Assembly (NCBI GenBank): GCA_021442595.1
Contig: JABUST010000148.1
Span: 1-47,070 of the forward strand
DNA from: Lachnospiraceae bacterium
Lineage (GTDB): Bacteria; Bacillota; Clostridia; Lachnospirales; Bianqueaceae
Direction of reading: 5' to 3'
DNA length: 47,070 nt
Part shown: positions 13,194-28,148 of the stretch, in pieces
Position numbering within the stretch: the first letter of the stretch is position 1
Layout of the letters: every line of letters starts with the position of its first letter
Translations under genes and position numbers: made by a program
The notes under the pieces: model-generated
Seen by the model: only the letters and a program-made list of their open reading frames with translations
What the model was told of the DNA's origin: nothing
The model's database searches: none

Positions 13194-14396
13194 TCAGCTT
13201 CTGCGCTTTCTCTGAAGGAAGCCGGGGATATCTACGATATCGATGGGGACTTCGTCATCAGACGTATTTGCAGACACTTCATAATTCTGAGGCTGCTGCG
13301 TAGGAGTACGATATGCGCCGCCCTGGAAGCCGTTCTCGGCAGGAGCGGGGGCTGCACTCTTGGGAGTGCGGAATTCAGTGGAGGTCAACTCAACAGCATG
13401 ATCCTCATCGTCATTCTTCAAGGGCTTGCGTCCGGGAGCCTGGCCGAAATCCGTGGCAATCACGGTGACCACCAGCTCATCCTTCAGGGAATCATCGGTG
13501 GTGGTACCCACGATGATCTGGGCTTCCTCATCCACCAGAGAACTGATATATTCGGAAACAGCATCGAACTCGTACAGGGTCATATCGGGACCGCCGCACA
13601 CATTCACCAGCACGCTCTTGGCGCCGTTGATGTTAGTATCCATGAGAGGAGAAGCAATGGCCTGCTCAGCTGCCTTACGGCCCTTGTCCTCACCCTTGGC
13701 CCGGCCGATACCCATATGGGCAAGACCCTTGTCCTGCATAATGGTGCGTACATCCGCAAAGTCCAGATTAATCATACCGGGACGGTAGATCAGGTCGGAG
13801 ATGCCCTGCACGCCCTGGCGCAGCACATCATCGGCCATACGGAAAGCTTCTACCATGGAAGTCTTCTTGTCAGCCACATCCAGCAGACGGTCATTGGAAA
13901 TGGTGATCAGGGTATCCACATTGTGACCCAGTCTCTCGATACCTTCCATGGCGCTCTGCATTCTTCTCTTTCCTTCAAAACGGAAGGGCTTGGTGACCAC
14001 ACCCACTGTCAGGATGCCCAGGCTCTTGGCAATGCCTGCCACCACGGGAGCTGCGCCGGTTCCGGTGCCGCCGCCCATACCGGCGGTGATGAAGACCATA
14101 TCGCAGCCATCCAGTGTCTTGCGGATATCCTCCTCACTCTCATGAGCTGCCTTTTCGCCGATTTCGGGGTTAGCACCTGCTCCCAGACCTCTGGTCAGCT
14201 TCTCGCCGATGACGATCTTGCTGGGAGCCTTGCCCTTTGCCAGGACCTGCTTATCTGTATTGATAGTCAGGAATTCAGCACCTCTCAGACCATCCTCGAT
14301 CATGCGCTCTACGGCGTTGTTTCCGCCGCCGCCCACGCCGACCACCGTGATCCTGGCAGTGTTGATTCCATCCTTCTTATAGTCGAATTCGCTCAT
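13194..14396 (-). CDS. ftsZ: Cell division GTPase FtsZ
   Basis: The 400-residue tubulin homologue polymerises into the division ring. The GTP-binding signature [13 protein letters not shown] is present, with the N-terminal [14 protein letters not shown] and the T7-loop region FADVRTIM. A variable linker of about 65 residues leads to the conserved tail peptide [12 protein letters not shown], which binds partners such as SepF or FtsA. AGGAGG precedes the ATG by about 9 nt (GAGGAGGGTTACCCC). It has its own promoter 97-125 nt upstream and its own terminator, so it can be transcribed apart from the rest of the dcw cluster. No ftsA lies beside it. Confidence 0.98.
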
Positions 14397-14572: not shown

Positions 14573-15334
14573 TTACTCATCCGTCTCCGCCGGGAGTTCA
14601 AAAGGCTCCACATAAATCTGGGAATCCATGTTCTCTATGTGCAAAATCCCTTTGGGAATGGAATCCATTCTCATGACCTCCGCAGCCACACAGATCTTGC
14701 GCTCCACATCCTTAATGGAGCCGATGTGGATCTCCAGCTTATCGGAGAACAGAAGGATATCATCCAGAACCCGCACATTCACCTCGTAGACATCATTTTG
14801 CAGGTCATATTTCCGCAGAGCCGTACCGATGGAGACCACCGCATCATACTTGCCGGTCTCTTCCACTGTCAAACGTTCTCCGATATTAAAGCTGCCTACC
14901 TTCAGCCCCACGATGGTGGGCAGATCCTCATCCGGTTCCCGGGTGGTGTTGGCCACCTGTCCCTTGCGGTCGATACACAGGTACATACCCTGAAAATACA
15001 CATAACCGATGGTAGAGCTCTCCTCCACCACGATCTTCACATGGGAGGGCCACTTAAAGTAGACATCCACCGAAGACAGACGGGAATCCACCGTAGGTGA
15101 AGAATTCAGGTGGGCCAGGGCATAGCGGAACAGGTTCGTCCCTTCCTTCAGCTCCAGCTGGTGCAGCACATCCTCATCGGAGATACGCTCCGTGCCCTGG
15201 ATCTCATAGGTCCTCAGGTTGAACACCGGACTGTTCAGGATGATCAGGATCAGCAGAGCGATGCCCAGCAAAAGTCCCCAGGCCTTCAGATGCTCATTCA
15301 GCTGGATCTGAGGAATCTTCAGTTTCAGCTTCAC
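14573..15334 (-). CDS. divIB: Cell division protein DivIB/FtsQ
   Basis: The 253-residue single-pass membrane protein has a short basic N-terminus, one membrane helix (about 17-36) and an extracellular POTRA domain that starts FNLRTYEIQGTERIS, followed by the beta domain. It is a divisome scaffold that binds FtsL/FtsB-type partners. The start codon is GTG at 15334, overlapping the ftsW stop as GTGA, with AAGGAGG 6 nt upstream. In many Firmicutes murG and murB stand between ftsW and divIB; here the two genes overlap directly. Confidence 0.9.
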   Translation of the reverse strand: MKLKLKIPQIQLNEHLKAWGLLLGIALLILIILNSPVFNLRTYEIQGTERISDEDVLHQLELKEGTNLFRYALAHLNSSPTVDSRLSSVDVYFKWPSHVKIVVEESSTIGYVYFQGMYLCIDRKGQVANTTREPDEDLPTIVGLKVGSFNIGERLTVEETGKYDAVVSIGTALRKYDLQNDVYEVNVRVLDDILLFSDKLEIHIGSIKDVERKICVAAEVMRMDSIPKGILHIENMDSQIYVEPFELPAETDE

Positions 15335-17109
15335 GTTGCCTCCTTACCCGGAACCTGCGCCGGCTCCTTCTGCTCCGCAGAGTAAGTGGAGATGTTCAGA
15401 ATAACTCCCACGGACGTCATCAAAAAGGCCATGGAGGAACCTCCGTAGCTGATAAAGGGAAGACCGATACCCGTGGCGGGAATGGAATTAGTATTTACCG
15501 CAATGTGCAGCAGTGCCTGCAGGGAGATCTGACCAACCAGAGATACCGCCACGTAGGAACAGTACCGGTTAGGCGCATTCAGGGAGATTTTGATGCCGTT
15601 CCAGGCAAAGGCCGTAAACAGGACCGCCACAATGATGGCGCCGAACATGCCCAGCTCCTCACAGATGACAGCAAAAATAATGTCATTGTATGCAAAGGGA
15701 ATATAACCCAGCTTCTGAAGGCTCTGTCCCAGACCTCGTCCGAAAAAGCCGCCGCTTCCTACGGCATACAGGGCTTGCACCGTCTGATATCCGTCGCCCA
15801 TAGCGTCCTCGAAAGGATCCATCCATGCAGTGATGCGGGCGGTGCGGTAGGAGAACTCTCTCAGGAAGTCGCCCAGCGGACCGGTCATATTGTCTGTATT
15901 GATCAGCAGGGGCAGCACCAGAAGCAGCACCACTATGCCTGCCAAAGGACCAACCACCATGAGGAAATGCTTGACCTTTGCGCCTCCCACGAACATGATG
16001 ATGACGCCGATGGCTGCCACGATGATGCCTGAAGAGAGGTTCTGATAGGCAACCAGTCCCGTTGGTATCAGGACCAGTATCAGCATCATGGCAAAGGTCC
16101 CGAACTCACCCATTCTGTCATGGAAATCATCCGCCAGCTTGGATATATACACCGCAACTGCCAGCTTGGCCAGCTCTGCCGGCTGGAAGGACAGGGAGCC
16201 GAAGCCCAGCCATCTGGTGGAACCATTGACTTCCACACCGATGAAGAACACCAACGTACTGCAGACCAGAGCCGCAATATACCCCGGAAGAGCCAGATTG
16301 CGCACCGTGGTCATGGGCACCTTGGACACCAGCACCATAGCCACGATGCCGATCAGACTCCAGATGAACTGACGGCGGAAATAGTACATAGGATCATCCA
16401 TGGTGTTATAGGCATCATAATAGCTGGAGCTGGTGACCATGATCAGCCCGATGACCAGCAAGGCAATGACGCAGGCGACCAATGTAAAGTTCTGCTCGTT
16501 GCGCTGGGGCAGAGTTATTCTCCTTTTCTGCTTGTCACCGCCGGCAAATTGAATAAATTCCTTTGTCCAGGAAAATATTCCTCCCGCCAGTGTTCCGGCA
16601 ATATCCCCGGCGGCGCTGCCACTGCGTTTTCCTGCGTCTTTCCCCTCGGGATAGTATTCTTCCTCGCTCACAAAACCGAAGGAGGCAGCAATGCTGCGCT
16701 TTTTCTCTTCAGAGACCCGGCTGACGGAAGTCTTTTTCCGGTTATTGGTTCTCTCTGCTTTTCTTCCTTCATACCGGTCTGCACTTCTTTCGGCATATCT
16801 GTCAGAACTTCTGCCATCAAACAGGTCGGCATTTCTTTCGGCATAACTGTCACCATATCTATCGGAAAATCTGTCAGCGCTTCTGTCAGCATACCGGTCT
16901 GCATATCTGTCAGCGGGACGCGTCGTGGCTTTGGCCTTTTTGGTTTTCTTTCTTCCTCCGGTTCTGAAGCCTTCTCCGAAATAGGGGTCTTCAGAGTCTC
17001 CGCTGTAGAGAGACTGGAATTTGCCCTGGAACCGGCTGCTGCCGTACACGCTGTCCCTTTCCCGGGTATACTCGCTGTCCCGGACCTGTTGTTTTTTCTT
17101 CTTAGCCAT
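15331..17109 (-). CDS. ftsW: Septal peptidoglycan polymerase FtsW, long tail
   Basis: This SEDS-family glycosyltransferase polymerises lipid II with its partner PBP. Membrane segments run from about residue 207 to 580, with family blocks such as GSTRWLGFG, FQPAELAKLA, GYQTVQALYAVGSGG and GIGLPFISYGGSSM. Before them lies an unusual cytosolic tail of about 200 residues. Residues of about 65-120 are a period-4 repeat of the type A-D-R-Y, followed by a basic stretch and an E-E-Y-Y-P segment. Typical FtsW is about 370-420 residues, so this one (592) is much longer. The ATG at 17109 has AAGGAGGGGCGGA just before it. A shorter start inside the tail is possible but lacks such a site. Confidence 0.94.
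   Translation of the reverse strand: MAKKKKQQVRDSEYTRERDSVYGSSRFQGKFQSLYSGDSEDPYFGEGFRTGGRKKTKKAKATTRPADRYADRYADRSADRFSDRYGDSYAERNADLFDGRSSDRYAERSADRYEGRKAERTNNRKKTSVSRVSEEKKRSIAASFGFVSEEEYYPEGKDAGKRSGSAAGDIAGTLAGGIFSWTKEFIQFAGGDKQKRRITLPQRNEQNFTLVACVIALLVIGLIMVTSSSYYDAYNTMDDPMYYFRRQFIWSLIGIVAMVLVSKVPMTTVRNLALPGYIAALVCSTLVFFIGVEVNGSTRWLGFGSLSFQPAELAKLAVAVYISKLADDFHDRMGEFGTFAMMLILVLIPTGLVAYQNLSSGIIVAAIGVIIMFVGGAKVKHFLMVVGPLAGIVVLLLVLPLLINTDNMTGPLGDFLREFSYRTARITAWMDPFEDAMGDGYQTVQALYAVGSGGFFGRGLGQSLQKLGYIPFAYNDIIFAVICEELGMFGAIIVAVLFTAFAWNGIKISLNAPNRYCSYVAVSLVGQISLQALLHIAVNTNSIPATGIGLPFISYGGSSMAFLMTSVGVILNISTYSAEQKEPAQVPGKEAT
16750..16917 (-). repeat. 12-bp tandem repeats coding FtsW tail
   Basis: About 14 imperfect 12-bp units encode four-residue repeats of the pattern [A/S/G]-[D/E]-[R/S]-[Y/S/F/N], for example ADRY, ADRS, SDRY, AERS. 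The units vary in codons and residues, so the repeat is old or under selection rather than freshly expanded. It lies wholly within the cytosolic tail of ftsW. Confidence 0.85.
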
Positions 17110-17179
17110 TCCGCCCCTCCTTTCTTTTCTGTTTCACTGTCTTCCTGTACCCCTTCTCTATGGGAAGCATGGCAGGATC

Positions 17180-18571
17180 TTAGCGGCTCTGCAGCCTCTG
17201 AGCAGCCTCGCGGAACAGATCTCCCCGCTGCTCGTAATTATCAAACATGCCCCAGCTGGCGCAGGCAGGAGACAGCAGCACGCTGTCTCCGGGCCGGGCA
17301 GCCCGGAAGCACTCTTCAATTGCCTCGTCAAATGAAGCAGCCATATAGATATCCTCTTCGTGGAATCCGTACTTCAGGGCGCAGGCTCTGATATCCTCCG
17401 CCGTCTGACCTATGAGCACCAGCTCCCGGACCCTTCCGGGAAACAGTCTGCACCATTCGTCATAAGGAGTTCCCTTATCATATCCGCCTCCGATGAGCAC
17501 GGTCTTCTCGGAGCGCATGGCCAGAAGGCCCTTGATGGCAGCATCCGGATTGGTTCCCTTGGAATCATTGTACCAGGTGACACCTCTCACGGACCCAACG
17601 TTCTCAATGCGGTGGGCCACCCCGCGGAAGTTCATAAGCTGCTCCCTGAGGATGGATACCGGCACTCCCATGCGCAGAGCACAGCCCACAGCCGCCATCA
17701 CATTTTCCTCGTTATGAGCACCGATGATCTTCAGATCCTCAATGGCTGCAATGTCCAGCACTTCTCCCCGGACTTCAGCCAGAATATGCCCCTCCTGAGT
17801 CCAGACTCCCTCCGGAGTTCTGACCTCATGAGAGAACCAGCAGATGGAGGGCGCATCTTCTCTTTGGGCAAGAATCTCTCCCTTTTCTCTAACCAGGGGA
17901 TCGTCATAGTTCAGTACCAGGGCATCCTCCGGTCTCTGATATTCATAGATACGGCATTTGGCTGCCACATAGTTCTCATAGGTATAGTGCCGGTTCAGAT
18001 GATCCGGTGTAAAGTTCAGAATAGCGCTCACCTTAGGTCTGAAGCCATCGATGGTCTCCAGCTGGAAGCTGGACAGCTCCAGGGCCACTGCTGCCTCCTC
18101 CGGCACAGACTCCGCCACGGAGGTAAAGGCCAGACCGATATTTCCCGCAGCCAGGGAGCCGGGCTTCCATGCCTTCAGGATCTCTCCCATGAGAGTAGTG
18201 GTGGTAGTTTTTCCGTTAGTACCGGTGATTCCCACGATGGGCGCCTTGCAGAAGCGTCTGGCCAGTTCAATCTCTCCCCATACGGTCACACCGGCACTTC
18301 GAGCAGCCTCCAGAAAAGGAAGGTCTGCCGGAACGGCGGGAGACAGGATAATGAGATCGAAGCCGCAGGCTTCCTCTGAAGAGGGCGCTCTCCCGAAGAT
18401 TCCGGGAGCCTCTGCCGCTGCCTTCAAGTGCGACAGCTGCTCCTTCAGCTGGTCTTTCTGTTTTCCGTCGCTCAGGGTGACCAGAGCCCCGTGCTCCGCG
18501 CAAAGCTCTGCGGCACCTATGCCGCTCATGGCCATGCCCACCACAAGTACTTTTTTATTCAGAAGCTCCAT
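17180..18571 (-). CDS. murD: UDP-MurNAc-L-alanine:D-glutamate ligase MurD
   Basis: The cytosolic ligase adds D-glutamate to UDP-MurNAc-L-Ala. It shows the N-terminal Rossmann start KVLVVGMAMSG, the ATP loop GITGTNGKTTTT, NFTPDHLNRH and the C-terminal NDSKGTNPDA, all typical of MurD. The start at 18571 (MELLNKK) matches the usual N-terminus but has only a weak GGGGA site. An ATG at 18598 overlapping the mraY stop as ATGA is an alternative and would add nine residues. About 460 residues is normal. It lies between mraY and ftsW. Confidence 0.95.
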   Translation of the reverse strand: MELLNKKVLVVGMAMSGIGAAELCAEHGALVTLSDGKQKDQLKEQLSHLKAAAEAPGIFGRAPSSEEACGFDLIILSPAVPADLPFLEAARSAGVTVWGEIELARRFCKAPIVGITGTNGKTTTTTLMGEILKAWKPGSLAAGNIGLAFTSVAESVPEEAAVALELSSFQLETIDGFRPKVSAILNFTPDHLNRHYTYENYVAAKCRIYEYQRPEDALVLNYDDPLVREKGEILAQREDAPSICWFSHEVRTPEGVWTQEGHILAEVRGEVLDIAAIEDLKIIGAHNEENVMAAVGCALRMGVPVSILREQLMNFRGVAHRIENVGSVRGVTWYNDSKGTNPDAAIKGLLAMRSEKTVLIGGGYDKGTPYDEWCRLFPGRVRELVLIGQTAEDIRACALKYGFHEEDIYMAASFDEAIEECFRAARPGDSVLLSPACASWGMFDNYEQRGDLFREAAQRLQSR

Positions 18572-18594
18572 AGCATCCCCGTTTCTATTCCCGT

Positions 18595-19551
18595 TCATGC
18601 CAGAATGGCCAGACAGAGTATGCACATCAAAGCCGTGACGATGCTGAAGATGGCCACCACCCGGGTCTCATGCCAACCCTTCAGTTCGAAATGATGGTGA
18701 ATGGGCGCCATTTTGAACAAGCGCTTTCCGTGGGTCAGCTTGAAATAACCCACCTGCAGGATGACAGACAGAACCTCCACCACATAAATGATGCCGAACA
18801 GCAGGATCAGCAGCGGAATGTCCATGAGGAAAGTCATGGTTCCCACAAAGCCTCCCAGAGCCAGAGAACCGGTATCTCCCATAAATACCCTGGCAGGGTA
18901 GGCATTAAAGAACAGAAATCCCATGAGTGCGCCTGCAAAGGCAGCAGCCGGGATCTCCAGACCGCTTCCCAGCATGGCGGAAGCCAATACCAGGAACACC
19001 GTAATGATCATGGTTACCGTGGTGCTCAGTCCGTCCAGACCGTCCGTAAAGTTGGTGCCGTTGTCCAGGGCCATCATGCCCACTACCACCAGCACATAGT
19101 AGCCCCATTTCAGGTCCAGGGTCACACCGGTTATATACAGGGTGACTGTGGTGGCGTGTCCCGTCAGATACAGATAGATCGCCAGACCCAGAGAACACAA
19201 AAACTGAAGCAGAAATTTCTGCCCCGGCTTCAGGCCTTCGTTGTGCTTCAGAACGATCTTGATAAAGTCATCGGCAGCTCCCACAAGGCCGAAGGCAAAG
19301 GTCATCACCGGTACGATCCAGTACTTTCCCGGCTCCTTTCCGAAAAGCAGGCAGGAGGCAAGAAATCCCAGCAGAAAGATCACACCGCCCATGGTGGGGG
19401 TGCCCTTTTTCTTCTGATGGGCCTCGGGGCCCTCTTCCCGGATATACTGACCGAATTTCAGTTTATGCAGCAGGGGGATCCCTGCGTAGCCCAGTACCAG
19501 GGCGATGCCGAATCCGCTCAGTCCGGCCAATGCGATCTGCGCTATATTCAT
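18595..19551 (-). CDS. mraY: Phospho-MurNAc-pentapeptide transferase MraY
   Basis: This integral membrane enzyme makes lipid I from UDP-MurNAc-pentapeptide and undecaprenyl phosphate. Motifs include KKGTPTMGG, the aspartates in GAADDFIK, NGTNFTDGLDGL with the catalytic aspartate region, VFMGDTGSLALGG and the histidine motif MAPIHHHFE. At 318 residues with about ten membrane segments it is standard. I start it at the ATG 19551, with AGAGGAC about 10 nt upstream, because the longer reading would overlap the end of murF. The order murF-mraY-murD is the classical one. Confidence 0.96.
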   Translation of the reverse strand: MNIAQIALAGLSGFGIALVLGYAGIPLLHKLKFGQYIREEGPEAHQKKKGTPTMGGVIFLLGFLASCLLFGKEPGKYWIVPVMTFAFGLVGAADDFIKIVLKHNEGLKPGQKFLLQFLCSLGLAIYLYLTGHATTVTLYITGVTLDLKWGYYVLVVVGMMALDNGTNFTDGLDGLSTTVTMIITVFLVLASAMLGSGLEIPAAAFAGALMGFLFFNAYPARVFMGDTGSLALGGFVGTMTFLMDIPLLILLFGIIYVVEVLSVILQVGYFKLTHGKRLFKMAPIHHHFELKGWHETRVVAIFSIVTALMCILCLAILA

Positions 19552-19586
19552 GATGAACGCTGTCCTCTTTTCAAATCTGGTTATCG

Positions 19587-20990
19587 CTATGCATTTTTGC
19601 ATAACGACGAAAGCCTCTCCGGAATATCGGAAAACTGCATACCGTGGGAAGCCTTGAGGAGTATTATATCATTCTCATGGACAATAGACAAAATCTTTTT
19701 AAGCATGTCTTCCTTTGTATCAAAGTGAAAACAGGGCTGCTTTCCTCCCTTTTCCCGGTATCCTTCTTCAATGGCTGCGGCGGCCTGTCCCACGGTGAGG
19801 ATCACATGGACCCCTTCGGTCTCTGCCAGGTGATGCCCCACAGACAGATGCCCCTCCCGGGTATAGTCACCCAGTTCAAACATATCCCCCAGGATGGCTA
19901 CCCTTCGGGCCTCTCCCGGAATCCAGGTCAGGGCATCCACCGCCGCGCACATGGATACGGGGTTGGCATTATAGGTGTCATCAATGACCAGATACCGCTC
20001 CAGAGGAATTCTCTGAAGCCTGTGAGGCGTTGCCTCATAGGAAGCCAGGCCCCTTAAGATCTCTTCCCGGCTAAGTCCGAAGTGCACCGCCGTCATGATG
20101 GCGGGGATCACATTATAGGCCATGTGCCTGCCCAGGGTATTCACTACCAGATCGTAGGTCTCTCCCCGGTAAGTCATAACCATATGCATGCCCGCCTCCG
20201 GAGTGGGCTCCGCCAGGCGGATCACTCCGTCATTATGGGTCCCGAAGCCAAAAGTCTCCACCGGAACCTCCAGGCTGTCCTTGACAGCCATCAGCATATC
20301 GTCGTCACCATTGATCAGAAGAGGTCCCCGGGTCAGATGAGGCACCATCTCCAGCTTGGCCCGGCGGATCCCTTCCCGACTCCCCAGCATTTCAATGTGG
20401 GCCGTGCCCACGTTGGTGATGACCCCCATATCCGGGCAGGCCAGAGAAGCAGCGTAGTCAATCTCGCCGAAATGGTTCATGCCCATTTCAATGACCGCCG
20501 CCTGCACTTCATGGTCCAGCCGCAAAAGCGTCAGGGGCACACCGATATGATTGTTGAAATTTCCCAGTGTCTTCAGTGTCTTTCTGCCTCCGCTGAGGGC
20601 CGCGGCGATCATGTCCTTGCAGGAGGTCTTTCCCACGCTGCCGGTGATGCCCACCGTCATCAGCTCCGGCGGCATACTCTGCTTGTAGCAGCGGCCGATA
20701 GCTCCCAGGGCCTTCACCGTATCCTCCACCAGGATCAGGGAGGCTCCCTCCGGAACACCCCCGGGACACAGCTCCCTGGCCGGCTTTGAGGAAAGGACTG
20801 CCGCACCTTTTGCCAGCACATCATTGGCAAAATCATGACCGTCCAGCCGCTCTCCTTTTATGGCCACGAAGAGACAGCCGGGACCTGCCTCTCTGGAGTC
20901 CCGCACCAGTTCTCTGACCTCATAACCCGGGTCTCCCCGAAGGGTTCCCCCGCACCAGGCGGCCAGGGTTTGTAAACAGATGGTTTCCAA
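19587..20990 (-). CDS. murF: UDP-MurNAc-tripeptide:D-Ala-D-Ala ligase MurF
   Basis: The 467-residue cytosolic ligase adds D-Ala-D-Ala to the UDP-MurNAc-tripeptide. The ATP loop reads GITGSVGKTSCKDM, followed by NFNNHIGVPLTLL and VIDDTYNANPVSM, diagnostic for MurF. The start codon is TTG at 20990, with GGGAG 7 nt upstream and no ATG nearby; the N-terminus fits the family from that point. It begins 20 nt after the murE stop. Confidence 0.95.
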   Translation of the reverse strand: METICLQTLAAWCGGTLRGDPGYEVRELVRDSREAGPGCLFVAIKGERLDGHDFANDVLAKGAAVLSSKPARELCPGGVPEGASLILVEDTVKALGAIGRCYKQSMPPELMTVGITGSVGKTSCKDMIAAALSGGRKTLKTLGNFNNHIGVPLTLLRLDHEVQAAVIEMGMNHFGEIDYAASLACPDMGVITNVGTAHIEMLGSREGIRRAKLEMVPHLTRGPLLINGDDDMLMAVKDSLEVPVETFGFGTHNDGVIRLAEPTPEAGMHMVMTYRGETYDLVVNTLGRHMAYNVIPAIMTAVHFGLSREEILRGLASYEATPHRLQRIPLERYLVIDDTYNANPVSMCAAVDALTWIPGEARRVAILGDMFELGDYTREGHLSVGHHLAETEGVHVILTVGQAAAAIEEGYREKGGKQPCFHFDTKEDMLKKILSIVHENDIILLKASHGMQFSDIPERLSSLCKNA

Positions 20991-21010: not shown

Positions 21011-22504
21011 TCAGCGCTCCGCCAATCTGGCTGTGACTTCCTCCCGGTCATCCAGGTGGATCTTGGTGCGGCCGATGATCTGATAATCTTCGTGCCCCTT
21101 GCCGGCCACCATGACAATGTCCGAGGGCCGTGCCATGGCGATAGCCAGGCGGATGGCTTCTCTTCGGTCAGCTGTTCGAATGTAGGGACAGCCCGTGGGC
21201 CGGGTTCCATCCTCCACCCGGTCAATGATCTTCTCCGGGTCCTCCGTCCGGGGATTGTCGGAAGTAAGTACGCAGTAATCCGAAAGTCTTCCGGCGATCT
21301 CTCCCATGATGGGACGCTTCACCGGATCCCGGTCTCCGCCGCAGCCCACCACCGTAATGATCCTGCCCCGGGCAAACTCCCGGGCGGTTTCCAGCACGTT
21401 CTTAAGTCCGTCCGGTGTATGGGCATAATCCACCACGGCAATGACCCCGTCCCTGCTTCGGAAGGTTTCGAATCTTCCGTCCACGATGGTATGATCCAGG
21501 TTCAGAGACTTCACGATACTTTCAGGGGAGATGCCGCAGAGATGACAGGCAGAAGCTGCCAGAAGAGTATTATATATATTAAAACGGCCGGGGACCGGAT
21601 AGCGGACCTGTCCCAGATGTTCTCCCCGGAAGGTCCAGTCATAGACAAGACCGTTCTCGTCCATGGACATATTTTCAGCGCGATAGTCGTTGCCCTCCTG
21701 CAGACCGTAGGTGAAGAAGGGGCAGGCCTTTGTGGCCAGGATCACGGCTGCTGCCGGATCATCTCCGTTCACAAGGCCTCGCTCCGACTGGTAAAAGAGT
21801 TTGCATTTGGCCTCCAGATAGGCCTTCATGGTCTTATGAAAATCCAGATGGTCCTCTGTCAGGTTGGTAAACATACCCAGATCATAGCGTACCCGGGAGA
21901 CCCGGTGCTGAGCCAGGGCATGGGAAGAAACTTCCATGACCACAGCCTTTGCGCCTGCGCGCTTCATGCGGTCAAAGAGGGGATACAGATCAAAGGGGTA
22001 GGGAGTGGTATGGGTGGCAGGCTCTTTCCGGTCTCCTAACCGGTTTTCATTGGTTCCCACAAGACCGCAGCAGATGCCGTTTTCCATGAAAATGTGATGC
22101 ATCAGAGTGCTGGTGGTGGTCTTTCCGTTGGTGCCGGTCATACCGATCATGCGGATCTTCTCCGACTCTTTTCCTTCTTCTTCATGAGTGAAAACGCCGG
22201 AGAAGAAATTTGCTGCCATGCAGGACTCCGCCTCCATGACATCGGGCACCATGAGCATGGTCAGGCCCTCCGGCAGCTGAGCAGGCTCCTTGTCCATAAC
22301 CGCCAGCAAGGCCCCCTTCTCTGCCGCCATGTTCAAAAAGTCCACTCCGTCATATACTGTACCCCGCTCGCAGGCAAAGGCGCAGCCGGGAACCACCTTC
22401 CGGGAGTCATAGATCAGAGAGGTGATCTCCCTCTCCTGCCAATATTCGGCTCCTTCCCGGATCACAGTGTATGTCATGCCTTTTAACAATTCCCCAATGG
22501 TCAT
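21011..22504 (-). CDS. murE: UDP-MurNAc-tripeptide synthetase MurE, meso-DAP type
   Basis: The 497-residue ligase adds the third stem-peptide residue. It has the ATP loop GMTGTNGKTTTS, TNLTEDHLDFH, VDYAHTPDGL and the substrate-selecting motif SDNPRTEDP. The DNPR form selects meso-diaminopimelate in characterised MurE enzymes, so a meso-DAP wall is predicted. GAAGGAG lies about 8 nt before the ATG at 22504. The longer reading from 22555 would translate through a terminator-like hairpin and is rejected. Confidence 0.95.
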   Translation of the reverse strand: MTIGELLKGMTYTVIREGAEYWQEREITSLIYDSRKVVPGCAFACERGTVYDGVDFLNMAAEKGALLAVMDKEPAQLPEGLTMLMVPDVMEAESCMAANFFSGVFTHEEEGKESEKIRMIGMTGTNGKTTTSTLMHHIFMENGICCGLVGTNENRLGDRKEPATHTTPYPFDLYPLFDRMKRAGAKAVVMEVSSHALAQHRVSRVRYDLGMFTNLTEDHLDFHKTMKAYLEAKCKLFYQSERGLVNGDDPAAAVILATKACPFFTYGLQEGNDYRAENMSMDENGLVYDWTFRGEHLGQVRYPVPGRFNIYNTLLAASACHLCGISPESIVKSLNLDHTIVDGRFETFRSRDGVIAVVDYAHTPDGLKNVLETAREFARGRIITVVGCGGDRDPVKRPIMGEIAGRLSDYCVLTSDNPRTEDPEKIIDRVEDGTRPTGCPYIRTADRREAIRLAIAMARPSDIVMVAGKGHEDYQIIGRTKIHLDDREEVTARLAER

Positions 22505-22524
22505 AATGATTACTCCTTCTGCTA

Positions 22525-22552
22525 AAAAGTGCGGGCTTTCGTCCGCACTTTT
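22525..22552 (-). terminator. Intrinsic hairpin between pbp and murE
   Basis: AAAAGTGCGG (22525-22534) pairs perfectly with CCGCACTTTT (22543-22552) around an 8-nt loop. On the minus strand it ends in five T residues and stands between the PBP stop (22562) and the murE ribosome site. It looks like an intrinsic terminator or attenuator inside the dcw operon. Confidence 0.75.
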
Positions 22553-22561
22553 CATGGTTTA

Positions 22562-24499
22562 TTATTCGGAATCGGATGCTCCTTCTCCTGCCTGGGCCCG
22601 TTCAGCCTCCAGGTCAAAGGGAGAAATTCCCTGATAGGTACTGATGGTCAGATCGTACAGACTGGGAGACACTGCTTCCTGATTCAGAGTAGGATCCGGA
22701 TACAGTCCCAATTCGGGAAGAATAGCTTCCCAGATCATACCTGCCAGATGAGCAGACTGGGAGGATACATTCTTATCCGTTTCATCCAGGATTACCAGCA
22801 ACACGTACTCAGGATCCTCCACCGGGGTAAAAGAGATGAAGGAAACCACGTACTTGCCTTCTGCGTAACCGCCGTTTTCGTCTGTTTTCTCTGCGGTTCC
22901 CGTCTTTCCTCCGATGTCGTATCCGGGTACCAGAGCATTCATACCGGTACCTTCCCGGACCACTCGTCTCATGTAGGTCCGCAGCTCATGGCTGATCCAG
23001 GAGTCAATGGTGTAGCGCAGTACTTCCTTAGTCTGGGAAGCGATCACATTGCCGTTGGCATCGGTGATCTGACTCACCACATAGGGTCTGAGATACTCTC
23101 CTCCGTTAATGACGGAGTTCATGGCGCAGATCAGCTGCATGGGAGTCATTCGGAAGCCCTGACCGAAGGCTGTGGTTGCTTTCTCGAAGAATCCGATGGC
23201 ATTTCCGGTGCCCAGACGCTCCGCTTCTTCCGCACTGACATAGATCAGGGAACGATTATCTCCTGCCTCACCGGCAATATCAATACCGGTCAGGTTGCCC
23301 AGACCGTAGGCCTCCTGATAAAGAAGCCAGTCAGCTCGGGGGAACAGCAGTGAGATTTGTGTCATTCCCACGTTACAGGAATTGGCAATGATATCACTGG
23401 GGATCTCCAGGCCGTGCCACTCTCCGCCTGCGCAGCCCACCTCCGCATCGTACACGGTATAGTAACCGTTGCACACAAAAGGACTATTGATGGTGACGAT
23501 GCCTTCATTCAGCGCCGCTGCCATAAACATAGGCTTGAAGCAGGAACCGGGCTCAAAGGTGGAGGAGATCAGGAAGGAGTTCCACACATTGGCATAATAA
23601 TCGGGATCCGATTTATCGGGATTATTCTCCAGCCATTTCTCACTGGTACCGATCAGGGTGGTCACATCATTCAGATCGTAGGTGGGGACCTCGCACATGG
23701 CGGTGATCTCACCGGTAGAACACTTCATCAGGATGGCAGCTCCCTGCACAGCGTTGGTCACCTCCACACCGGTGGCCATAAACTGCTCAATGATACCCTG
23801 GACCTTGGAATCAATGGTCAGGGTGAGGGTGCATCCGTCCTGCGCCTCAATGTATTCTTCAACATAACTGACGCCGGAGCCGGCCACCACCATCTTTCTG
23901 CCGCTGGTGCCCTGCAGATACTCGTCATAATACTGTTCTACACCGTAGACGCCGTTGAATCCCAGCACATGGGCTGCCAGAGATCCATTGTAATAAATGC
24001 GGGATTCTGCCTCTTCAAACCAAACGCCCACCACGGAGCCTTCGTTGATACCTGCCTGAATGATCTGCATCTTCTCCGTGGAGATGCCCTTGCCGGGATC
24101 GAATTTCAGGTAGCGGTAGTCCGCATATTCAGATGTCATGTATCGGCGCACCTGGTCTTCCGATCCCAGACCCAAAGCCGAAACCAGCTGCTCTACTGTA
24201 CTCTTCTGCTTTGCCTCTGAGGATTCGATGAGTACCTGGCAGTCCAGAATGACGTTATAAATTCGGGTACTTTCTGCCAGAATATTGCCGTTTTTATCCA
24301 GAATGGGGCCCCTGAGCGCCGGAATGGTAACGTCAGTGGAATCCAGCTGCTGAGCCTCCGCCGCAGCCTGGTAGTCACTTCCGTGAACGATCTTAATATA
24401 TGCCACACGTCCCATGAGGGCGATCATCAGGACCACCATCACAATGAGGAAGAACATTTCTCTTCCCAGCATGGAATAGCGATTTTTTCTTTGACTCAT
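22562..24499 (-). CDS. Class B penicillin-binding protein, FtsI/PBP2B type
   Basis: The 645-residue septal transpeptidase has a cytosolic basic N-terminus, one membrane helix (about 14-34), a dimerisation region starting RGPILDKNGNILA, and a transpeptidase domain. Catalytic motifs are SCFK (serine at about residue 319) after STFEPG, SCN, and KTGTAEK. No PASTA domain follows. GAGGAC lies 6 nt before the ATG at 24499; the TTG at 24517 is rejected. It follows ftsL directly, as in other dcw clusters, and should work with FtsW. A SpoVD-like sporulation role cannot be excluded from sequence alone. Confidence 0.94.
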   Translation of the reverse strand: MSQRKNRYSMLGREMFFLIVMVVLMIALMGRVAYIKIVHGSDYQAAAEAQQLDSTDVTIPALRGPILDKNGNILAESTRIYNVILDCQVLIESSEAKQKSTVEQLVSALGLGSEDQVRRYMTSEYADYRYLKFDPGKGISTEKMQIIQAGINEGSVVGVWFEEAESRIYYNGSLAAHVLGFNGVYGVEQYYDEYLQGTSGRKMVVAGSGVSYVEEYIEAQDGCTLTLTIDSKVQGIIEQFMATGVEVTNAVQGAAILMKCSTGEITAMCEVPTYDLNDVTTLIGTSEKWLENNPDKSDPDYYANVWNSFLISSTFEPGSCFKPMFMAAALNEGIVTINSPFVCNGYYTVYDAEVGCAGGEWHGLEIPSDIIANSCNVGMTQISLLFPRADWLLYQEAYGLGNLTGIDIAGEAGDNRSLIYVSAEEAERLGTGNAIGFFEKATTAFGQGFRMTPMQLICAMNSVINGGEYLRPYVVSQITDANGNVIASQTKEVLRYTIDSWISHELRTYMRRVVREGTGMNALVPGYDIGGKTGTAEKTDENGGYAEGKYVVSFISFTPVEDPEYVLLVILDETDKNVSSQSAHLAGMIWEAILPELGLYPDPTLNQEAVSPSLYDLTISTYQGISPFDLEAERAQAGEGASDSE

Positions 24500-24509
24500 A
24501 TTGCCGTCC

Positions 24510-25097
24510 TCAATCAAACCAGTGGTAGCGCACCTTGCTTTGCGTAGGATCCTGGGTGGGCAGGTTGCTGGTCGTAAAGCTCTGGTTGGTCACCACGATC
24601 TTAATAATCTCATTTTCACCCGCTTCCACCATGCCCAAAGAGCCCAGGGCATAGGTATAGAGGGCGTCATTATTCATAGTTTCTCCGCCGGCCTCGGCAG
24701 CCAGCACGGCATTGGAATCCTCAGCAGCAGCAAGCTGTTCCCTGAGGTCCGATACTTCTGTATTTTTACTGAATACTCTCATGTACTGTATCAGGATCAG
24801 AAGCGCTCCGGTCACCAGCAGCCCTGCGCAGAAGAAAAAGTAGACCTTATTCCAGACACTGTTCCAATCTACCTTTCTGCCGGCGGTGCGGGCCCGCATC
24901 TCTGTTTCGCCGGTCCTTGCGGAGGAAGAAGTCCTCCCGGGCCGCCTTTTGCGTTTGTTTTCTTTTTCCCGGTTCTTCCTGCTGCCTCCGCCATATCTCT
25001 CAGGGGCCAGCTCCAGGAAACTGTTATCATTGAAAAGGTCCCGGGGCTCCCGCTGAGATGCCGGGCCTCGGGATGAAGTGCGTGATCTTTTAGGCAT
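24510..25097 (-). CDS. ftsL: FtsL-like septum protein
   Basis: This 195-residue bitopic protein occupies the ftsL position between rsmH and the PBP. It has a long basic, Arg/Lys-rich cytosolic part (about 1-100), one membrane helix (about 105-125) and a short coiled coil (DLREQLAAAEDSNAV) outside. FtsL proteins share topology rather than sequence, so the call rests on position and layout. The cytosolic part is longer than in B. subtilis FtsL (about 117 residues in total). The ribosome site is weak (AGAGAAT). Confidence 0.8.
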   Translation of the reverse strand: MPKRSRTSSRGPASQREPRDLFNDNSFLELAPERYGGGSRKNREKENKRKRRPGRTSSSARTGETEMRARTAGRKVDWNSVWNKVYFFFCAGLLVTGALLILIQYMRVFSKNTEVSDLREQLAAAEDSNAVLAAEAGGETMNNDALYTYALGSLGMVEAGENEIIKIVVTNQSFTTSNLPTQDPTQSKVRYHWFD

Positions 25098-25109: not shown

Positions 25110-26081
25110 CTACCGGAAAGCCGGGCTCTTCATAAGGGGAGTCTCCAGCTTTTCCACAATACGGAGTTTCGCGCTTCGGCTGCGGGGGTTCATCTCCAGC
25201 TCCCGGTCCGAGGGCTCAATGGGTTTTCTCGTAACGATGTTGACCAGGGGCTTCTTTCCGCAGATGCAGATGGGAGACTCCACCGGACAGGTACAGGGAT
25301 TTTCCAGATTCTTAAATGTTTGCTTGACGATCCGATCTTCCAGAGAATGGAAGGTAATGACACACAGTCTTCCGCCGGGAATCAGAAGATCCACCATATC
25401 CCGAATGGAATCTTCCAGAATACCCAGCTCATCATTGACTTCGATGCGAAGAGCCTGAAAGGTGCGCTTCGCCGGATGGGGACCATCTTTTCTCGCCTTG
25501 GCGGGAATGGCCTTGCGAATCACTTCCACCAGCTGACCGGTGGTTTCCAGAGGAGCCTTTTCCCTCTCGCTGACAATAAAGGAAGCGATGCGGGCGGCCC
25601 ATCTCTCTTCTCCGAAGTCACGAATAACTCGAAGCAGCTCCTGCTCCGAGTAAGTATTCACGATCATACCGGCGGTAAGTTCCCGGCGCTGATCCATGCG
25701 CATATCCAGTTTTGCGTCCTGCATGTAGGAGAAGCCCCGCTCCCCCTCATCAAGCTGGTGGGATGATACACCAATGTCAATCAGTATACCATTTACCCTT
25801 TCGATCTGCAAGGCGCTCATGACGGCTTTAATGTTTCGAAAATTATCCCGTACCAGCTGAGCATTTTTGTTTGTATAAGCGCTCAGTCTGGTACGGCCAT
25901 TTTCAATGGCATCCGCGTCCTGATCGATGCCGACAAATCTGCCGTTCCCGTTTAAACGGCTGATCACTCCGTCGGCATGACCTCCTCCGCCGAACGTACC
26001 GTCTACATACGTTCCGGAAGGCTCGATGTTCAGACCCTCGATGGTTTCATTAAATAAAACGGGTACATGTACGAACTCCAT
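25110..26081 (-). CDS. rsmH: 16S rRNA C1402 N4-methyltransferase RsmH
   Basis: The 323-residue enzyme (formerly MraW) N4-methylates C1402 of 16S rRNA. It shows [13 protein letters not shown], the SAM motif [38 protein letters not shown] and [11 protein letters not shown], all typical. It is the second gene of the dcw cluster, 26 nt after mraZ, and its ribosome site is weak. Confidence 0.96.
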
Positions 26082-26107: not shown

Positions 26108-26557
26108 TCAGACTCCACCGGCTCTTAATCCTTCAGCCAGCTTACCCGAATTATAAAATGAATCATCGTTGTTGTAGGCCGTCCATTTGTCGCGGTCCCA
26201 AATTTCAATGTGGTTGTCCTGACCTACCAGCACGATCTCTTTCTCCAGTCCGGCATGGTCTCTCAGTTCCTGCATCAGCACGATACGGCCCTGTTTATCT
26301 GTTGAGGTGTCCTGTACCCGCGAATAGAACCGACGTAAAAGCTTACGGGTGTCCTGGTCTGTACTTCCCATGGTCCTGAGCTTTTCGCACAGGGCCTTGA
26401 AGTCTGCTTCGGGATAAACATACAGGCAAGTCTCTTCGCTCTGCCCCCACAGATCAATGGTTACGTAAAAGATCTCACCCAGCTGTTCTCTGAATTTTGC
26501 CGGTATGATAATGCGGCCTTTTTCGTCAACATTGTGCTGATACTCACCGTAGAACAT
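26108..26557 (-). CDS. mraZ: Transcriptional regulator MraZ
   Basis: The 149-residue protein has two SpoVT/AbrB-like DNA-binding halves, starting FYGEYQHNVDEKGRI and repeated as STDKQGRIVLMQELRDHAG. MraZ in other bacteria binds repeats in its own promoter and represses or tunes the dcw cluster. The ATG at 26557 has GAGGAGGGAG about 8 nt upstream. Four GTGGAG repeats lie between the promoter and this start, which fits self-regulation. Confidence 0.95.
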   Translation of the reverse strand: MFYGEYQHNVDEKGRIIIPAKFREQLGEIFYVTIDLWGQSEETCLYVYPEADFKALCEKLRTMGSTDQDTRKLLRRFYSRVQDTSTDKQGRIVLMQELRDHAGLEKEIVLVGQDNHIEIWDRDKWTAYNNDDSFYNSGKLAEGLRAGGV

Positions 26558-26572
26558 GTATGTCTCCCTCCT

Positions 26573-26609
26573 CTCCACATAGACTCCACAAAGCTCCACT
26601 TTGCTCCAC
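26573..26609. promoter_or_regulatory. Four-copy MraZ operator
   Basis: On the minus strand GTGGAG occurs four times (plus-strand CTCCAC at 26573, 26584, 26594 and 26604), with periods of 11, 10 and 10 bp. MraZ of E. coli binds TGGG-type repeats separated by 5 nt, which gives the same 10-bp period. The array covers the predicted transcription start and leader of mraZ, where bound protein would block transcription. Confidence 0.8.
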
Positions 26610-26876: not shown

Positions 26877-28115
26877 ATGAAGCAGGAAAGACCCTACGCC
26901 GGGTTCACAGTGACCAAAAAAGCCGAAGCATCCCTGGTCAAGGGACATCCCTGGGTGTACGATGCCGAGATTCTGAACATTGACGAGAGCTCCGCCCCTG
27001 TTCCCGAAAACGGAGGTCTGGTGGATGTCCTCTCCACCAAAGGCCGCTACCTGGGAACCGGCTTTATCAGCGAAAGCTCCAAGATCCGCATCCGCCTCAT
27101 CTCCCGAAATGCCAACGACACCTTCGGAGAGGATTTCTGGCTCCGCCGTCTGAAATATGCCTGGGAATACCGAAAGACCGTTATGCAGGAGGATATCAGC
27201 TGCTGCCGTCTGATCTTCGGGGAGGCCGATCAGTTCCCGGGGCTTACCGTGGACCGGTTTAATGATCTTCTGGTCACCCAGACCCTCTCGGTGGGCATGG
27301 AAAGACTGAAATCTCTGCTGTTTCCTGCCCTGGTACAGATCCTCCGGGAAGACGGTCAGACCATCCGAGGAGTCTATGAACGCAACGACGCAGCCCTTCG
27401 GGATAGAGAGGGCCTTCCCCAGAATAAGGGCTGGTTTCCTCTGGAGGGGGAAGACATCCCCGACTCCCCGGTAACGGAGATCATGGAAAACGGTGTACGC
27501 TACCGGGTGGATGTGGAAAACGGTCAGAAGACCGGCTTCTTCCTGGACCAGAAATACAACCGTCTGGCGGTGGCCCGCATGGCCAAAGGGCTGCGGGTTC
27601 TGGACTGCTTCACCCACACCGGCAGCTTTGCTCTGAATGCTGCCCTGGGAGGCGCCGCCCATGTGACCGCCGTGGACATTTCCGCCTCCGCCATCGAAAT
27701 GGCCCGTGCCAATGCTGACCTGAATGGTCTCACGGACCGCATGGATTTTGTGGTTGCCGATGTCTTTGACCTGCTTCCCTCTCTGGAAGGAAAAGGCCAT
27801 CCCTATGATATGATCATTCTGGATCCTCCCGCCTTTACCAAGAGCCGCCGCACCATGGACAATGCCCTCAGGGGCTACAAGGAGATCAACCTCCGGGCCA
27901 TGAAGCTGCTGCCCCGAGGGGGATATCTGGCTACCTGCTCCTGCTCCCACTTTGCCGATGAAGCTCACTTCAAGGCCATGCTCCGCTCGGCAGCTGCCGA
28001 TGCCGGCGTGTCTCTTCGGCAGATCGAAGGCCGCCAGCAGGGCCCGGACCATCCCATTCTCTGGAATGTGGATGAGACGGATTACCTGAAATTCTTTCTT
28101 TTCCAGGTCGTCTGA
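26877..28115 (+). CDS. RlmI-type 23S rRNA m5C methyltransferase
   Basis: The 412-residue SAM-dependent methyltransferase has an N-terminal PUA domain (about 1-80, with KGHPWVYDAEI), a middle domain and a C-terminal Rossmann fold. Motifs are LDCFTHTGSFALNA, VDISASAIEMA, ILDPPAFTKSR and TCSCSHF, as in RlmI, which makes m5C1962 in 23S rRNA. GAGGAA precedes the ATG by about 4 nt. It diverges from the dcw cluster and is the first plus-strand gene of the window. Confidence 0.92.
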   Translation: MKQERPYAGFTVTKKAEASLVKGHPWVYDAEILNIDESSAPVPENGGLVDVLSTKGRYLGTGFISESSKIRIRLISRNANDTFGEDFWLRRLKYAWEYRKTVMQEDISCCRLIFGEADQFPGLTVDRFNDLLVTQTLSVGMERLKSLLFPALVQILREDGQTIRGVYERNDAALRDREGLPQNKGWFPLEGEDIPDSPVTEIMENGVRYRVDVENGQKTGFFLDQKYNRLAVARMAKGLRVLDCFTHTGSFALNAALGGAAHVTAVDISASAIEMARANADLNGLTDRMDFVVADVFDLLPSLEGKGHPYDMIILDPPAFTKSRRTMDNALRGYKEINLRAMKLLPRGGYLATCSCSHFADEAHFKAMLRSAAADAGVSLRQIEGRQQGPDHPILWNVDETDYLKFFLFQVV

Positions 28116-28148
28116 TTCTGAGGGTCGTCTGATTCTGATTTCACATAT

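Follow-up and report, generated by a model that had tools for sequence, protein, structure and literature searches.

The window, which is the whole stretch of 47070 bp that was analysed, includes an ftsW gene whose product carries a long charged region ahead of its first membrane segment. This raised the questions of whether the region is a genuine part of the protein and what it could contribute to cell division. The source genome (G000; an assembly 94% complete in 223 contigs) belongs to a family of uncultured, probably rumen-type Clostridia, and a complete dcw cluster was found on the minus strand of the window (Table 1). TRF additionally recorded a 17 bp tandem duplication (1.9 copies) at positions 28106-28138.

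The Pfam model FTSW_RODA_SPOVE covers residues 210-577 of the predicted protein (E 7.8e-90; 301.9 bits against a cut-off of 26.4). The protein has the same TM core as the solved FtsW structures (8bh1 and 8p1u; TIGR02614/PF01098), including the residue Asp476, and the gene shares the place of a typical ftsW next to ftsQ and ftsZ. However, it differs from known FtsW proteins in its 203-residue N-terminal extension and in its score with the NCBIfam equivalog TIGR02614 (ftsW), which at 316.2 bits is below the cut-off of 337.5 though still the top score among the SEDS models. The FtsW sub-family label therefore rests on synteny with ftsI, ftsQ and ftsZ and on the exclusion of SpoVE and RodA. SpoVE was rejected on a TIGR02615 score of 297.7 against 448.8 bits and on the lack of Spo0A in G000. 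As Spo0A was found in none of the 7 genomes of the genus, the enzyme in the window is not kept for sporulation. RodA was rejected because the rodA equivalog gave 253.1 bits against a cut-off of 336.7, and a different SEDS paralogue sits near an mreB-like gene in genome G006. A third SEDS gene in G000 (L147, contig C74) lies beside a PBP gene, and its 506-aa frame includes additional membrane segments at the N-terminus.

Table 1. Coordinates of the dcw genes and of the ftsW features in the window
Feature	Coordinates	Strand	Description or basis
mraZ	26108-26599	-	dcw cluster
rsmH	25110-26081	-	dcw cluster
FtsL/DivIC-like protein	24510-25097	-	84-aa cytosolic tail, net charge +13; proposed partner
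Class B PBP (FtsI/SpoVD-like)	22562-24517	-	profile matches
murE	21011-22555	-	named by eye from sequence and place
murF	19587-20990	-	named by eye from sequence and place
mraY	18595-19602	-	named by eye from sequence and place
MurD	17180-18625	-	immediately upstream of ftsW; profile matches
Shine-Dalgarno sequence AGGAGG of ftsW	17116-17121	-	precedes the ATG at 17109
FtsW (SEDS glycosyltransferase), 592 aa	15331-17109	-	ORF, Pfam, NCBIfam, structure alignment, AlphaFold2
Cytosolic N-terminal tail, residues 1-203	16501-17109	-	net charge +14; mostly low pLDDT
VRDSEY, residues 9-14	17068-17085	-	possible degenerate L[RQN]x[ED]DF; inferred from alignment to congener G005
FQGKFQSLY, residues 27-35	17005-17031	-	matches FDGKFQSIY in the FtsW tail of congener G005
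Array of 14 tetrads (12 bp each), residues 66-121	16747-16914	-	TRF, lag identities
Low-confidence amphipathic helix just before TM1, residues 173-188	16546-16593	-	AlphaFold2, hydrophobic moment
Asp476 of FtsW	15682-15684	-	catalytic position; lines up with the conserved Asp of the HTDF motif in solved FtsW and does not vary in either alignment
FtsQ/DivIB (POTRA_1)	14573-15334	-	Pfam
FtsZ	13194-14396	-	ordinary C-terminal peptide; profile matches

The initial annotation had described a charged tail of about 200 residues ahead of the first membrane segment, and this description was borne out. In the AlphaFold2 model TM1 spans residues 208-236 and the TM core is confident from about residue 201, while the solved FtsW structures align to the window protein from residue 205 on. 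Known FtsW topology places the tail in the cytosol. Residues 1-203 are a long extension predicted to be mostly disordered, with pLDDT mostly below 50 at residues 27-101 and 145-176 and helices of modest to low confidence at residues 2-22, 68-84, 102-126 and 173-188. Translation from a start near residue 190, which would remove the tail, is unlikely, as the ATG at 17109 is backed by a Shine-Dalgarno sequence, the only other in-frame starts before TM1 (GTG 21, GTG 147 and TTG 210) have no clear one, and the next ATG in the frame is residue 224.

The tail contains 46 K/R and 32 D/E residues, together with 44 S/T/Y residues that led to the proposal of a Tyr/Ser/Thr phosphorylation platform controlling FtsW. 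However, tyrosine is not conserved in relatives, where it makes up 0-4% of the tail, and this role is very improbable.

The initial annotation had also reported about 14 tetrads of the A-D-R-Y type, and 14 units were found. Ten of these match [AS][DE]R[YFSNT], with exact ADRY in three, and GDSY, ADLF, DGRS and EGRK are partial units. Identities at lags of 4, 8 and 12 residues were 41, 42 and 30, against about 15 ± 3.7 in shuffled sequences (0 of 2000 shuffles as high), and TRF gave periods of 24 and 36 bp within the array. Against an expectation of 54.5 under the codon usage of the dcw genes, or of 74.1 under that of the tail, identical codons were used in 101 of 162 same-residue codon pairs between units. 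As the codons are more alike than usage predicts, the units (12 bp each) multiplied by duplication. Identity between units is 0.47 at codon position 3 and 0.68 at positions 1 and 2 together, and the lower value at position 3 is consistent with later constraint on the repeats at the protein level. None of the relatives whose FtsW was read has ADRY units, and on this comparison the repeats are private to the G000 genome. They were therefore rejected as a conserved functional unit.

A private array born by duplication counts in favour of neutral or near-neutral low-complexity expansion by replication slippage at a cytosolic N-terminus that is permissive in this lineage, in which the tail would stay basic solely through the positive-inside preference of membrane proteins and would have no specific partner. 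The family comprises 19 genomes in five genera, from which 16 tails were obtained, 15 from complete FtsW sequences and one, of 148 aa, from a protein cut by a contig end (G005). All 15 complete proteins carry N-terminal extensions, of 48-203 aa and net charge +3 to +20, that in the window being the longest, so a survey of orthologues did reveal tails of this kind. The fourteen other complete genes have a Shine-Dalgarno sequence before the start that takes in the tail (the start codon chosen for L027 is uncertain by about one codon). The tails are barely alignable between genera, which again fits neutral expansion. The two members of genus g4 have just 48 aa, amphipathic in character, and the tails of three congeners begin MPND[QR]ERTRFTPLV in place of the LRxEDF motif (see below). 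The match between FQGKFQSLY in the window and FDGKFQSIY in G005 had an alignment score reached by 2 of 500 shuffles. The FtsZ linker of the genus has a conserved [FY]QGxxYRTP that faintly resembles FQGKFQSLY.

Outside the family, named relatives mostly have 5-45 aa ahead of TM1. Open frames there run from 365 to 470 aa between stops, and matched FtsW frames in the order from 372 to 439 aa. Frames of 856 and 700 aa (G357 and G485) were dismissed as long-tailed FtsW because the proteins read have short tails. The statement that a typical FtsW has a short N-terminus thus stands for most relatives but not for this family, nor for four proteins elsewhere in the class (L109, L140, L141 and L142), which have independent basic tails of about 80-110 aa. 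L141, from another clostridial family, has its own repeats (ARSANTRSA...). Such independent basic low-complexity tails in unrelated clostridial families, one with repeats, also favour neutral expansion, as does C. difficile PBP1, whose 46-residue disordered cytosolic tail is not needed for growth or division under laboratory conditions (PMC12539705). That tail likewise belongs to a septal synthase in Clostridia, but it is shorter and part of another enzyme. No description of an N-terminal extension of FtsW was found in the literature searched, which mostly excluded subscription papers. The tail is a lineage-specific feature of a known enzyme, and the repeats are probably a local addition to it.

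Against neutral expansion, a short motif is kept in tails that are otherwise unalignable. The sequence R-x-L-[RQN]-x-[ED]-D-F is present in 10 of 16 tails, from four of the five genera, starting some 17-33 residues into the protein. Its core, L[RQN]x[ED]DF, occurred in 0-3 of 5000 shuffles of each tail and in 0 of 77 FtsW proteins from outside the family. What is conserved is thus this short N-terminal motif and a net positive charge, rather than the repeats. In the window only the possible degenerate form listed in Table 1 was found, and a weak alignment of residues ~130-150 with the LRxEDF region of G013 and G014 (equalled in 20-24 of 500 shuffles) was set aside. No family member read has lost the tail, and the RodA-like paralogues in the genus are short frames of 384-398 aa with no tail, both of which also argue against neutral expansion. 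It remains a serious alternative, but on the whole a doubtful one.

The N-terminal mini-domains of PBPs that bind GpsB use (S/T/N)RxxR(R/K) (PMC11062636), and are comparable in that a short motif lies in the cytosolic N-terminal tail of a cell wall synthase, but the GpsB motif itself is missing from the window tail and was found in only one of the 16 tails (L022).

The charge of the tail could alternatively mean that it lies on acidic lipid together with the juxtamembrane amphipathic helix, or touches nucleoid DNA or RNA, with no protein partner. The amphipathic stretch (residues 169-188) has a hydrophobic moment of 0.48 and some relatives show similar stretches before TM1. A precedent is available in M. 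tuberculosis, which has SepF and no FtsA, and where the disordered FtsQ tail carries an Arg/Ala-rich helix binding acidic lipid and FtsZ (PMC10036325). Both are charged disordered tails on a divisome membrane protein (about 100 residues in FtsQ) in a setting with SepF but without FtsA, and the window tail likewise has an R/A-rich segment that may form a helix. However, FtsQ is a different protein with no sequence relation implied, and its binding has been demonstrated, whereas any binding by the window tail is hypothetical. As the repeats are nearly charge-balanced (D/E against R) and the conserved acidic-Phe element (EDF) is no lipid- or DNA-binding feature, a purely electrostatic role is unlikely.

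The initial annotation had proposed that the repeats could bind FtsZ or another divisome protein. With the repeats unconserved, this is not supported in that form, but binding of a divisome protein by the tail still appears to be its likeliest function. The FtsA-specific domain PF02491 (SHS2) was detected in 0 of 19 family genomes and 0 of 147 genomes of the order, with positive controls found. Other FtsA-like Pfam matches, mostly to proteins of 330-370 aa, are probably MreB-like, as they lack SHS2. Hence the tail cannot bind FtsA, which was discarded as a partner. As FtsA is also missing from lineages of the order with short FtsW tails, its loss does not explain the tail. A weak DivIVA-like protein is present.

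The absence of FtsA would favour a direct tether to FtsZ, and M. tuberculosis FtsW is reported to bind FtsZ by means of a tail at its C-terminus (Datta 2002, cited by both PMC4285798 and PMC10036325). According to those citing papers, that tail too is an added cytosolic one linking FtsW to the ring, but at the C-terminus rather than the N-terminus, and its partner was demonstrated, whereas that of the window tail is only proposed. However, FtsZ linker length does not track FtsW tail length in the family (rho -0.48), the net charge of the linker is only -5 to +1, and the C-terminal peptide of FtsZ is ordinary. Direct tethering to FtsZ is therefore improbable, and the failure of the FtsZ linker to follow the tail also led us to reject a generic lengthening of divisome linkers.

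SepF was found in 18 of the 19 family genomes, and each member read has an acidic SepF linker (-2 to -9). The length of the SepF linker correlates with that of the FtsW tail within the family (rho 0.66, p 0.008; independent contrasts r 0.70, sign-flip p 0.02), in an exploratory, post hoc comparison of 12-15 genomes with few independent events. Family members also have a longer SepF than other genomes of the order do (p 1e-4, kinship ignored). Among 51 non-family genomes the SepF and FtsW frame lengths are uncorrelated (rho 0.04), though FtsW tail length scarcely varies there. SepF of G000 (L145, contig C34) has a 140-residue linker rich in Y, S, R and D, and is the longest main SepF frame among 118 genomes of the order.

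FtsL has N-terminal tails of 66-99 aa in most family members. An acidic-aromatic motif of the type [DE]x(F/Y)F[EDQ] (EDFFED, DDFFEE and DNFFED, with DYFQ[QE] of genus g3 fitting loosely) occurs in FtsL of the six genomes with the FtsW LRxEDF motif, and G002, G003 and G006 have neither the FtsL tail nor the FtsW motif. This FtsL motif was defined after looking, and the joint losses amount to at most two or three on the tree. The 84-residue tail of the window FtsL/DivIC-like protein is basic and R/S-rich; most family FtsL tails start acidic, and three congeners are tailless. FtsQ tails are short in other members, but the FtsQ frame of G004 (L199) has a long, strongly acidic N-terminal stretch.

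On this covariation, FtsL and SepF are better supported than FtsZ as partners of the tail. Recruitment of FtsW by the cytosolic domain of FtsL is known in E. coli (PMC8998562). Docking by disordered tails also has precedents in FtsA-less M. tuberculosis, namely those of FtsQ (PMC10036325) and FtsW (Datta 2002, cited in PMC4285798). We therefore propose, tentatively and at somewhat less than even odds, that the tail is a basic disordered cytosolic docking tether linking FtsW to the FtsL/SepF side of a divisome that has no FtsA. The short N-terminal motif (RxL[RQN]x[ED]DF in relatives, degenerate in the window) and the spread positive charge may bind disordered acidic regions of partner proteins, above all the FtsL N-terminal tail and/or the SepF linker, and docking would recruit the septal synthase to the Z-ring or keep it close. 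In the window species, in-frame 12-bp duplications would have lengthened the middle of the tail into D/R/Y-rich units, which may act as a spacer extending its reach and provide weak multivalent charge or aromatic contacts. Several points weigh against a docking tether, namely that the window FtsL tail is basic rather than acidic and the window FtsW motif degenerate, that SepF and FtsW frame lengths are uncorrelated outside the family, that the correlations are post hoc and drawn from few independent events, and that the C. difficile PBP1 tail is dispensable. The more specific proposal, that the FtsW tail (LRxEDF), the FtsL tail (acidic-aromatic) and the acidic SepF linker co-evolve and replace FtsA as the link between Z-ring and septal synthase, is rather unlikely as a whole.

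The FtsW tail motif, with the SepF and FtsL regions that co-vary with it, would provide a concrete hypothesis at the peptide level for how FtsW may be coupled to the ring where FtsA is absent. Should the tail instead be neutral, it would document how much freedom an essential SEDS enzyme has to lengthen its cytosolic N-terminus.
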